From an uncultured Clostridia bacterium (GTDB lineage: Bacteria > Bacillota > Clostridia > Oscillospirales > Ruminococcaceae), in contig CALDJI010000291.1 of assembly GCA_937901805.1 (NCBI GenBank), positions 1 to 15,724 on the forward strand: 15,724 bases of DNA, in the 5' to 3' direction. Made by a program: the position numbers and the translations under genes. Below, in pieces: positions 2,814 through 5,784 of this stretch. The notes under the pieces are model-generated. The model made no database searches. It saw only the letters and a program-made list of their open reading frames with translations, and was not told the DNA's origin. Numbering within the stretch: the first letter of the stretch is position 1; each line of letters starts with the position of its first letter.

Positions 2814-4490
2814 TTACCCTTTATCCGATGAGAAAACCGACGCTTTTGGCAGTCCTCTGAGATGGCGGCGGATAATTTTTCCAGAGGCGGTCTTTTTCAA
2901 ATAATCGGTATACTCAACCACACGGGGATACTTATAAGGCGCAGTCATCCGTTTGACATATTCCTGAATCTCTTTTGTCAATCCCTCCGATCCCCGATAA
3001 CCCTCGCTGAGCACAATGGTCGCCTTCACCACCTGTCCCCGGACCGGATGCGGGGCTCCGGTAATTGCACATTCCCGCACTGCGGGATGAGTCATCAGAA
3101 CGGATTCTATTTCAAAAGGCCCGATTCGATACCCGGAACACTTGATTATATCGTCATTACGGCCGATAAACCAAAAATATCCCTCTTCATCCTGCCAGGC
3201 GATATCCCCCGTATGGTAAATGCCCTGTTCATCACAGGCCGGACGGAGTTTTCCCTCCTCCCAATAACCCCGCAAAAGTCCTTCCGGGTAATCCGTGTTG
3301 AGACCGAGGACAACCAGTTCCCCCTGTTCACCCGGAGCACAGGGAGTCCCATCTTCCCTAATCAGGGCCAGATGATACAGAGGGCTGGGTTTCCCCATAG
3401 AGCCCGGTTTTATCTGAAACCAGGGGAAATTTGCTACCAGGACACTGGATTCAGACTGGCCAAATCCCTCATGAATGGAAAGGCCGGTAATCTTTTGAAA
3501 GTCCTGGATAATCTCCGGGGCAATCGGTTCCCCAGCGGTACAGCAATGCGTCACAGAGGAAAAATCCTCTTTAGAAATTCCCTGACGCATCAAAAAACGG
3601 TAGACCGTTACAGGAACGCACAGACTGGTTGGGCGTTTTTGCCGAATCACCTGCAAAAACTCATCCGCATGGAACTTATGACCGCCGTCATATCCCAAAA
3701 CCGCGCACCCAGCAATCCATTGCCCATAAATACATCCCCAGCCAAATTTTGCCCAACCGGAATCCACCCCTGTCAGATGCAGTCCGTTCTCCTGTACTTT
3801 TTGCCAGTAGACAGCTGTCACCAAATGCCCAAGCGGATAGGAATAATCGTGAACCACCATTTTGGGCATTCCAGAAGTACCGGAAGTAAAATACATCAGC
3901 ATATTATCCCGTACCGTCAATGTCTCATCCGCTTCGAATTCCCCGACCGGATTTTCCAGAGCCGCAGAATAATCCTGCCAGTTCTGCCGTTTCCCTCCTG
4001 CAAGCACCAAATAGCGCAGAGACGGACAGTCCGGTGCCGCAAGTTCCACTTGGGTTATCGTAAAATCCTCCGCAAAAGCCACGATCATCCGCACCTGGGC
4101 TGCCTGAACACGGTAACGGATATCCTTTGCCGTCAATTGGCAGGACGCAGGGACCAGTACTGCGCCAATCCGGTGCAGGGCGACCGCTGTAACCCAATAT
4201 TCCCAGCGGCGCCCCAGCAGAACCATAACCCGATCGCCCTTTTCAATCCCCAGGCTTTTGAAAAAGAAAGCGGCCCGTTTGGAAAGAGCAGAAATATCTG
4301 CAAAGGAAAATGTTTTGGACTCTCCGCGCCGGCTGCACCATTCCAATGCGCGTTTTTCGGGTTCCCGTCTGGCCCATTCATCTACGACATGCGTGGCAAA
4401 ATTAAAGTCTTCCGGATAATGAAGGGCATACTGATTCCGAAAATCTTCATAGGAATCAAACTGTGTTTTTGCTAGAAACTGTTCTTTCAT
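2814..4490 (-). CDS. Acyl-CoA synthetase (AMP-forming), medium/branched-chain acid type, under T-box control
   Basis: A 558-residue adenylate-forming enzyme of the acetyl-CoA synthetase/MACS group, which joins a carboxylic acid to CoA through an acyl-AMP intermediate. Motifs: the phosphate-binding loop YFTSGTSGMPK (200-210), EGFGQSE (341-347), the TGD at 427-429, the hinge region near 444-451, and the C-terminal KTASGK (533-538), whose last lysine is the adenylation-step lysine. Length is normal. The ATG at 4490 is preceded by GGAGG nine bases upstream and starts the family-typical N-terminus; upstream in-frame codons fall inside the T-box leader and are not coding. The valine-type T-box suggests the substrate is a branched short-chain acid such as isobutyrate, usable for valine by reductive carboxylation. 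That substrate is inference. No clear terminator follows, only a weak hairpin at 2760-2791. Confidence 0.88.
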   Translation of the reverse strand: MKEQFLAKTQFDSYEDFRNQYALHYPEDFNFATHVVDEWARREPEKRALEWCSRRGESKTFSFADISALSKRAAFFFKSLGIEKGDRVMVLLGRRWEYWVTAVALHRIGAVLVPASCQLTAKDIRYRVQAAQVRMIVAFAEDFTITQVELAAPDCPSLRYLVLAGGKRQNWQDYSAALENPVGEFEADETLTVRDNMLMYFTSGTSGMPKMVVHDYSYPLGHLVTAVYWQKVQENGLHLTGVDSGWAKFGWGCIYGQWIAGCAVLGYDGGHKFHADEFLQVIRQKRPTSLCVPVTVYRFLMRQGISKEDFSSVTHCCTAGEPIAPEIIQDFQKITGLSIHEGFGQSESSVLVANFPWFQIKPGSMGKPSPLYHLALIREDGTPCAPGEQGELVVLGLNTDYPEGLLRGYWEEGKLRPACDEQGIYHTGDIAWQDEEGYFWFIGRNDDIIKCSGYRIGPFEIESVLMTHPAVRECAITGAPHPVRGQVVKATIVLSEGYRGSEGLTKEIQEYVKRMTAPYKYPRVVEYTDYLKKTASGKIIRRHLRGLPKASVFSSDKG

Positions 4491-4520
4491 GGTACTTATC
4501 CTCCAGTATTTCTTTCCGGC

Positions 4521-4556
4521 AAAAAGAAAACGCCCTGCTGCCAATGCAACAGGGCG
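4521..4556 (-). terminator. T-box terminator
   Basis: On the minus strand, CGCCCTGTTGC pairs with GCAGCAGGGCG (11 pairs, one G-U) around an ATTG loop, followed by TTTTCTTTTT. Its 5' arm contains the CGCCCT needed by the antiterminator, so the two folds exclude each other. Confidence 0.92.
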
Positions 4557-4821
4557 TAGATACAGTACGCGGTACCACCTGAATTCGGATAAAAAATCCG
4601 CACTTTGCCAAAACGGAGACTGACAGGCAGCTCGATTTTGCTTCCGTTGTAACGTGTGGAATTCACGTCGGAGCCTACTTAGAAGAACATACTCCCGTTC
4701 GGTCCGCGACTCTGAGGCTACTTTCCAACAGGTTCCAATACGGCGCTCCCACCACCGGCCGCTCTCTAAAAATGGAAATCCTGTTATACTTCTCCTCTTC
4801 ACTGTCTTTTGCCGTTATATT
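4521..4821 (-). promoter_or_regulatory. T-box riboswitch (specifier read as GUA, valine) upstream of the acyl-CoA synthetase
   Basis: On the minus strand a complete T-box leader is visible. Stem I: GAGG (4797-4794) pairs with CCTC (4717-4714), followed by the conserved AGAAGTA; AACAGG (4785-4780) pairs with CCTGTT (4732-4727), and TTCCA (4777-4773) with TGGAA (4737-4733). The conserved AGAGAG is at 4767-4762. A GAAAGTAG segment immediately before CCTC places the specifier GTA at 4721-4719, followed by a purine. The T-box AGGTGGTACCGCG (4580-4568) forms an antiterminator: AGG/CCT with the 7-nt bulge TGGTACC, then GCGTA/TACGC. It competes with the terminator at 4531-4556. The bulge UGGU matches a tRNA ending ACCA, as tRNA-Val does. 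Uncharged tRNA would favour readthrough into the synthetase gene. Confidence 0.92.
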
Positions 4822-4827
4822 TTGTTT

Positions 4828-4857
4828 ATCATAGCACCGTATTAAATCAACTGTCAA
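4828..4857 (-). promoter_or_regulatory. Sigma-A promoter of the T-box/acyl-CoA synthetase unit
   Basis: On the minus strand, TTGACA (4857-4852), an 18-base spacer, then TATGAT (4833-4828) preceded by TGC, giving an extended -10. The start falls near 4821, just before stem I. Confidence 0.8.
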
Positions 4858-5511: not shown

Positions 5512-5784
5512 TTATTTAAGCAGTTCGCGGTATTCCCCATGCTTTTCAAACCATTTCACCGCATAGGAACAGGTTGGAAAAATCTGTTTTCCATTTGCTT
5601 TGGCGTAATCCACAACTGCCTGCATGAGTTTCCCCGCAGCGCCCTGGCCGCGGAGCGATTCATCTACAAAGGTGTGGTTGAGATGAAGCACTCCCGGCGT
5701 TTCTTCCGGAAACGTCACCTCAGCCACTGTTTTTCCCTGCGCATCGGCCTGATAAATCCTGCCTGTCTGAACTTGAAATTGCAT
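5512..5784 (-). CDS. Small GNAT-family N-acetyltransferase, YjdJ-like
   Basis: A 90-residue protein that closely follows the pattern of E. coli YjdJ (GNAT-like acetyl-CoA-binding family). Seen: a short N-terminal beta region with AEVTF, then HTFVDESLRGQGAAGKLM (about 37-54), which carries the RGQGAAG acetyl-CoA pyrophosphate-binding loop, then VVDYAKANGKQIFPTCSYAVKWFEKHGEY. These minimal acetyltransferases lack a known substrate. The ATG at 5784 is preceded by GGAGGGG. It lies 18 bases after mutS2 and is probably the last gene of that operon, before the terminator at 5417-5459. Confidence 0.85.
   Translation of the reverse strand: MQFQVQTGRIYQADAQGKTVAEVTFPEETPGVLHLNHTFVDESLRGQGAAGKLMQAVVDYAKANGKQIFPTCSYAVKWFEKHGEYRELLK

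Follow-up and report, generated by a model that had tools for sequence, protein, structure and literature searches.

Among the growth factors of gut and rumen anaerobes are branched short-chain acids. To our knowledge, little is known of how their use is regulated. The window, which is the whole stretch of 15,724 nucleotides analysed here from an uncultured Clostridia bacterium (contig CALDJI010000291.1), holds a T-box riboswitch ahead of a gene for an AMP-forming acyl-CoA synthetase. The question raised by this arrangement is which tRNA the T-box reads, and why an acid-activating enzyme should be placed under its control.

The T-box and the gene behind it

That a T-box stands in front of an acyl-CoA synthetase gene had been proposed from the letters of the window. 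The proposal was borne out by the covariance match, the motifs and the intact reading frame. The Rfam search returned RF00230 over the full model (positions 1-219) at 4811-4547 of the minus strand, with an E value of 1.4e-27 and a score that exceeded the gathering score of 93, and this was the sole RNA family found in the 15.7-kb window at gathering thresholds. It is confirmed that a complete transcriptional T-box sits between a promoter-like site and an intact synthetase gene. The features, all on the minus strand, are the following.

5512-5784: small GNAT protein (Acetyltransf_CG), upstream neighbour of the synthetase
4828..4857: promoter-like site TTGACA-18-TATGAT, sigma-70-type, 11 of 12 consensus positions
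4547..4811: T-box leader, from stem I to the antiterminator (RF00230, 123.8 bits)
4797-4794 with 4717-4714: lower stem I, GAGG pairing with CCUC (read from the sequence)
4767-4762: AGAGAG motif (read from the sequence)
4719..4721: specifier GUA (valine) in the loop GAAA-GUA-G (read from the sequence; the same rule gives GUA in the valS T-box of the relative G282)
4577-4574: UGGU, contained in the T-box sequence AGGUGGUACCGCG (read from the sequence)
4581-4550: antiterminator, with a 7-nt UGGUACC bulge
4571..4577: the antiterminator bulge UGGUACC, whose UGGU is complementary to A73-CCA; the tRNA-Val of relatives has A73
4521..4557: intrinsic terminator and U tract, with the stem ACGCCCUGUUGC/GCAGCAGGGCGU at 4557-4530, overlapping the 3' strand of the antiterminator
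9 nt before the ATG at 4490: GGAGG (read from the sequence)
2814..4490: AMP-forming acyl-CoA synthetase, 558 aa, MacsMa/MbcS-like, an intact open reading frame with PF00501 and PF13193
2225-2629: DUF4854 protein, downstream neighbour of the synthetase

The antiterminator and the terminator are mutually exclusive, bases 4557-4550 being common to both. Against shuffled sequences the terminator stands out (-23.2 kcal/mol, z -4.6). The isolated antiterminator is no more stable than its shuffles (z 0.0), and folding the leader upstream of it by free energy brought no improvement either (z +0.8). The T-box call therefore rests on the covariance match and the motifs, and free energy gives it no support. 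The promoter-like site is the single one in a 501-base stretch, for which shuffles gave a mean of 0.5. In the raw list of open reading frames the gene starts at 4802 and encodes 662 aa; this start falls inside the leader and was rejected. Apparently the same GNAT frame lies upstream of the synthetase in G282.

Distribution of the T-box and reading of its specifier

Relatives of the synthetase were located at 80 genome loci, and 12 of these have the T-box (L001-L011 and L080), eight of them above the Rfam gathering score and the other four at 78 to 91 bits in a whole-genome search. In 394 genomes sampled from a single order, 5 of 30 loci have the T-box, and some of the rest carry weak motifs but nothing else of a leader. 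Three of the five were new and added the T-box genomes G282, G049 and G091; the leaders of the latter two score 92.6 and 91 bits, just below 93. At 51-56% identity, the motif was absent from the upstream 900 bases in 66 of 68 loci, two of which (L062 and L063) have an upstream stretch shorter than 200 bases. The weak motifs in the remaining 2 of these 68 distant loci compare with 2 in 340 random stretches, and Rfam found no T-box in the 11 of the 68 that were scanned. Since 66 of the 68 distant relatives have no motif and the other two have motifs of a kind that random stretches also give, T-box regulation of this enzyme belongs to one clade.

With one nucleotide placed between the codon and lower stem I, the specifier of the window is GUA at 4721-4719. 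The same position was surveyed in 16 leaders of the clade, which are the window, the 12 loci named above, and G282, G049 and G091. All 16 read as valine (14 GUA and 2 GUC), with no non-valine codon among them, and all 16 carry the UGGU bulge; they are not independent, because G003, G049 and G091 are near-identical. A control came from G282, the closest relative found, whose enzyme is 78% identical to the window synthetase: its valS T-box (L276) carries a GUA loop identical to that of the window leader. Together with the covariance match and the exchange of GUA for GUC across homologues, this control upheld the valine codon assigned in the sequence-only reading. The companion claim, that UGGU fits A73 of tRNA-Val, agrees with six printed tRNA-Val sequences, all from relatives, that end in A73-CCA. 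A strict tRNA-Val pattern matched in 7 of 12 genomes. No tRNA-Val was recovered for G008 and G010, where the specifier is GUC, and for G001 and G002, where it is GUA, the anticodon recovered was GAC only and no UAC. The survey of leaders, the valS control and the A73 match support the reading that the window T-box would recognise tRNA-Val.

The synthetase family and its likely substrate

The nearest solved sequence to the window enzyme is MacsMa (PDB 3etc), with an E value of 3.9e-175 over residues 3-545. The synthetase motifs YFTSGTSGMPK, YHTGD and KKTASGKI are present, as is Trp251, which we take to be the pocket residue Trp259 of MacsMa on the basis of the 3etc alignment and an assumed numbering offset that comes from the PDB title. 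Trp251 occurs in all 58 rows counted; if the equation is off, the neighbouring invariant Trp246 would be the next candidate. The best NCBIfam model is MbcS (NF047394), at 411.9 bits and short of its cut-off of 850, so the enzyme is not classed as MbcS itself.

The available sections of PMC10455477 describe MacsMa as preferring 2-methylbutyrate, with Trp259 being critical, and as forming acyl-adenylates from C3 to C8 acids. MbcS is described, in the available part of PMC10026030, as selective for 2-methylbutyrate and isobutyrate and poor on isovalerate, and in Staphylococcus aureus it serves branched-chain fatty acid synthesis. The window enzyme is predicted to activate isobutyrate, possibly also 2-methylbutyrate. 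For isobutyrate activation, which had been put forward from the sequence, the evidence is indirect and comes from the family, from the isoleucine and leucine counterparts and from the ilvC searches, both described below; the score short of the MbcS cut-off speaks against it.

In precomputed Pfam annotation, a set of relatives that are 62-69% identical to the window enzyme (P0006-P0015, P0020, P0021 and P0028) have GNAT domains too, which perhaps points to control by lysine acetylation.

Sister T-boxes and their enzymes

At least 130 T-box loci from twelve genomes were read, together with 16 from G282. In G282 and in at least 10 of the twelve genomes, an isoleucine T-box (AUC) lies ahead of an MbcS-like synthetase, which, G004 excepted, either follows an HTH-cupin protein or is fused to one. 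For leucine, at least 9 of 15 genomes have a T-box (CUC or CUG) ahead of a PRK12583-like synthetase that either stands alone or carries a TIM barrel as its fusion partner. Tryptophan T-boxes precede IorA and then an apparent IorB in at least four genomes (G006, G009, G010 and G011), a phenylalanine T-box precedes IorA in at least one (G001), and tyrosine T-boxes precede acyl-CoA ligases in at least two (G006 and G011), an IorA-like match lying about 3.7 kb downstream of the tyrosine T-box in G011. Ten of the proteins (3 Ile, 3 Leu, 2 Tyr, 1 Trp and 1 Phe) were scanned with Pfam and NCBIfam and the rest were judged by their reading frames; the tryptophan, phenylalanine and several of the isoleucine and leucine specifiers were read by eye.

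By a fixed rule, the 40 parsed leaders of MbcS-like enzymes (16 of the valine clade and 24 of the isoleucine-type branch) gave 21 valine and 19 isoleucine specifiers and nothing else, and all 9 parsed leaders of PRK12583-like enzymes gave leucine. Three leaders (C_G006, C_G191 and C_G300) were left unparsed by the rule and read by eye as AUC. The rule is imperfect, because three of the six parsed valS controls (G006, G008 and G009) were misread as Arg, Gly and Ser; the G011 control was unparsed, and an earlier scoring had given GUC for all four. In a further set of 40 stretches, chosen upstream of HTH-cupin-type and lower-scoring relatives from the 394-genome match list, a motif filter found the T-box core in 16 and the fixed rule found one more, in G327. 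As the filter missed G327, the number of leaders without a T-box in that set is an upper bound. The division by which valine and isoleucine specifiers fall on MbcS-like enzymes and leucine specifiers on PRK12583-like enzymes agrees with the preference of MbcS for isobutyrate and 2-methylbutyrate over isovalerate.

Several loci in this collection have features of their own. At L224, L129 and similar loci, the HTH-cupin protein lies upstream of, or is fused to, the isoleucine-type synthetase behind an isoleucine T-box, possibly giving two layers of control. A xylose-isomerase-like TIM barrel is fused to the PRK12583-like synthetase behind leucine T-boxes at L151, L092, L164, L219, L267 and L268, the fusion being assigned by Pfam and NCBIfam at L219 and by a similar start at the other five. 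An iron-containing alcohol dehydrogenase family protein follows T-boxes at L135 and L139 (both G002) and L199 (G011), where the specifiers read by eye are Val (GUC), Ile (AUC) and Leu (CUC), with a Pfam assignment for L135 alone. The next gene at L135 encodes an SBF-type sodium symporter and L139 has a similar frame; these alcohol dehydrogenase loci are possibly a second branched-chain route or a transport system. Tyrosine T-boxes (L162, L174, L149 and L160; L099, L102, L103 and L200) precede proteins that resemble, by sequence alone, sodium:solute symporters and aminotransferases, and these loci may belong to an arylacetate route. In G282, a leucine T-box (L266; CUC, by eye) precedes an open frame of 457 aa.

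A residue that follows the specifier

A tree of the enzymes was built from 65 rows after the short rows cG005 and cG282 had been dropped. Rows cG007 and cG010 are wrong reading frames with very long branches and cG009 has an odd composition; residue counts were made without these three and without four HTH-cupin rows lacking a parsed T-box. All 16 members of the valine clade group together (97/100). Nested inside the isoleucine group are five enzymes that are fused to an HTH-cupin protein and have a GUA specifier, which would most simply be explained by a switch from AUC to GUA within that group.

Position 247 is Ala in all 21 rows with a valine specifier, the window enzyme included (Ala247), and in the 17 rows with an isoleucine specifier it is Gly in 15 and Met in 2. 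Located by motif in 22 isoleucine enzymes, it is Gly in 17, Met in 1 and unreadable in 4. MacsMa has Gly at this position, which is presumed to lie close to the acyl pocket. Fifteen columns distinguish the nested valine enzymes from the isoleucine enzymes, and 247 is the only one of them where the nested enzymes also match all 16 rows of the main valine clade. The difference was noticed post hoc, and two lineages underlie it. Ala is also found at 247 in 20 of 20 relatives without a T-box.

Pathway genes in the relatives

The sequence-only reading had isobutyryl-CoA carboxylated by a ferredoxin-dependent oxidoreductase, in a genome where ilvC or ilvD would be missing. Both points were followed in the relatives, and we infer that the window's own genome resembles them. 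The oxidoreductase step is plausible, with VorB over its cut-off in 12 of 15 T-box genomes, but the other three (G003, G007 and G010) have no VorB match over cut-off, and the direction of the step is presumed; VorB also exceeds the cut-off in 30 of 34 relatives without the T-box. Among the T-box matches listed, none has VorB downstream, so the VOR step is apparently not co-regulated.

For ilvC there is no match over cut-off in any of the 15 T-box genomes, which are MAGs of unstated completeness; the sub-threshold matches in G002, G003 and G010 score 19-24 bits against a cut-off of 226. Relatives without the T-box have ilvC over cut-off in 8 of 34 and lack it in 26, so that its absence is a weak mark of T-box genomes. 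For ilvD, one of 12 T-box genomes (G001) and 8 of 34 others are over the cut-off, and G007-G012 have full-length matches of 495-531 bits against a cut-off of 618, which possibly belong to another dehydratase. IlvE is present in all 12 T-box genomes examined. From the ilvC and VorB counts in genomes without the T-box, the route from acid to amino acid appears possible in these organisms generally, with T-boxes added in some lineages. A precedent exists in rumen methanogens, for which the available part of PMC10658910 describes branched volatile acids as precursors of isoleucine and leucine.

Proposed mechanism and alternatives

We put the probability at roughly 0.77 that the locus carries out a tRNA-Val-gated scavenging of isobutyrate to valine, as one arm of a tRNA-sorted regulon. 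In a shortage of valine, uncharged tRNA-Val would pair with the leader twice, at the GUA of stem I and, through its A73CCA end, at UGGU, upon which the antiterminator would form and the synthetase would be made. The enzyme would then couple isobutyrate, and possibly 2-methylbutyrate too, to CoA as a thioester, a 2-oxoacid:ferredoxin oxidoreductase (VOR) would carboxylate isobutyryl-CoA to 2-oxoisovalerate, and a branched-chain aminotransferase would turn this into valine. The salvage regulon as a whole would have separate valine, isoleucine and leucine T-boxes on separate synthetases, and tryptophan, phenylalanine and tyrosine T-boxes on arylacetate-type enzymes. We lean, with some reserve, towards a wider reading in which such a regulon makes amino acids from branched and aromatic acids excreted by other gut microbes. 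Every amino acid would have a T-box of its own on a separate acid-activating enzyme, and the specifier would predict the substrate: Val would go with isobutyrate, Ile with 2-methylbutyrate, Leu with isovalerate, and Trp, Phe and Tyr with arylacetates. The RNA sensor would then have co-evolved with the active site, the change from AUC to GUA in a lineage of isoleucine enzymes going with that from Gly to Ala near the acyl pocket. The ilvD matches and the assumed residue numbering leave us slightly less confident in both readings.

It is unlikely, in our estimate, that the synthetase, induced by valine shortage, instead supplies isobutyryl-CoA as a primer for branched-chain fatty acids, valine being spared and imported, as for MbcS in Staphylococcus aureus. 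That MbcS is the best NCBIfam model and serves branched-chain fatty acid synthesis (PMC10026030, as far as its available part goes) would favour such a role, and the matching of Val, Ile and Leu fits it equally well, since any of isobutyryl-, 2-methylbutyryl- and isovaleryl-CoA could act as a primer. However, the tryptophan and phenylalanine T-boxes on indolepyruvate:ferredoxin oxidoreductase and the tyrosine T-boxes on ligases fit amino-acid synthesis and not primers, and none of the 15 T-box genomes has ilvC over its cut-off. It seems to us distinctly improbable that the switch works as proposed but controls a broad short-chain acyl-CoA synthetase that feeds mainly energy or lipid metabolism, with valine as a general starvation cue. 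The C3 to C8 range of MacsMa (PMC10455477, in its available sections) would permit it, but matched substrates are favoured by the way in which specifiers and enzyme families pair up, and by a Gly/Ala difference that goes with the specifier.

The specifier itself could in principle be serine (AGU) or lie in another frame, with the enzyme serving another pathway. TBDB considers specifier frames of -1 and +1 (according to the available text of PMC7778990), and AGU is found in 14 of the 16 clade leaders, the window among them, the other two reading CGU. Over the 40 parsed leaders, though, frame -1 yields a mixture of seven residues (Ser, Arg, Tyr, Asn, Asp, Cys and His) and frame +1 gives a stop or Ser, whereas frame 0 gives solely Val or Ile. 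The serine and +1 frames were rejected, a consistent reading coming from frame 0 alone, and as UGGU matches A73 of tRNA-Val as well, we regard a shifted frame as very improbable indeed.

Meaning and comparison with known systems

If scavenging of isobutyrate under tRNA-Val and its sister arms are true, the codon of a T-box would reveal, from sequence alone, which substrate is taken by an acyl-CoA synthetase that otherwise looks generic. Fermentation products of the community would be linked to the translation apparatus of the organism that feeds on them, and pairs of enzyme and riboswitch would be at hand for testing. Among the papers listed by the literature searches, no report was found of a T-box before an acyl-CoA synthetase. 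None appears in the available parts of PMC2494555, PMC3766115, PMC7438776, PMC7583486, PMC9045289 and PMC11477304, and the available text of PMC2494555 contains neither 'CoA' nor 'ferredoxin'. The riboswitch class is known; as far as those papers go, the class of target, the sorting by tRNA and the way in which the specifier and a residue beside the pocket changed together appear to be new.

Known T-boxes (RF00230, for example valS leaders) have in common with that of the window stem I, the specifier loop, the AGAGA motif, the UGGN bulge and the alternation of antiterminator and terminator. The window T-box differs in its target, an acid-activating enzyme and not a tRNA synthetase, a standard biosynthesis gene or a transporter. 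The Macs of Methanosarcina acetivorans (3etc) is homologous to the window enzyme over residues 3-545, with Trp251 equated to its Trp259; unlike it, the window enzyme has Ala247 where Macs has Gly, is bacterial and stands behind a T-box. MbcS (NF047394) is the best model for the window enzyme and has 2-methylbutyrate and isobutyrate as known substrates (PMC10026030, available part), whereas the window enzyme falls far under the equivalog cut-off and the role of MbcS is in fatty acid synthesis. The proposed route resembles one in rumen methanogens, where volatile fatty acids with branched chains are precursors of branched-chain amino acids (PMC10658910, available part); here the organisms are gut Clostridia, in which amino-acid-specific T-boxes stand before the activating enzymes.
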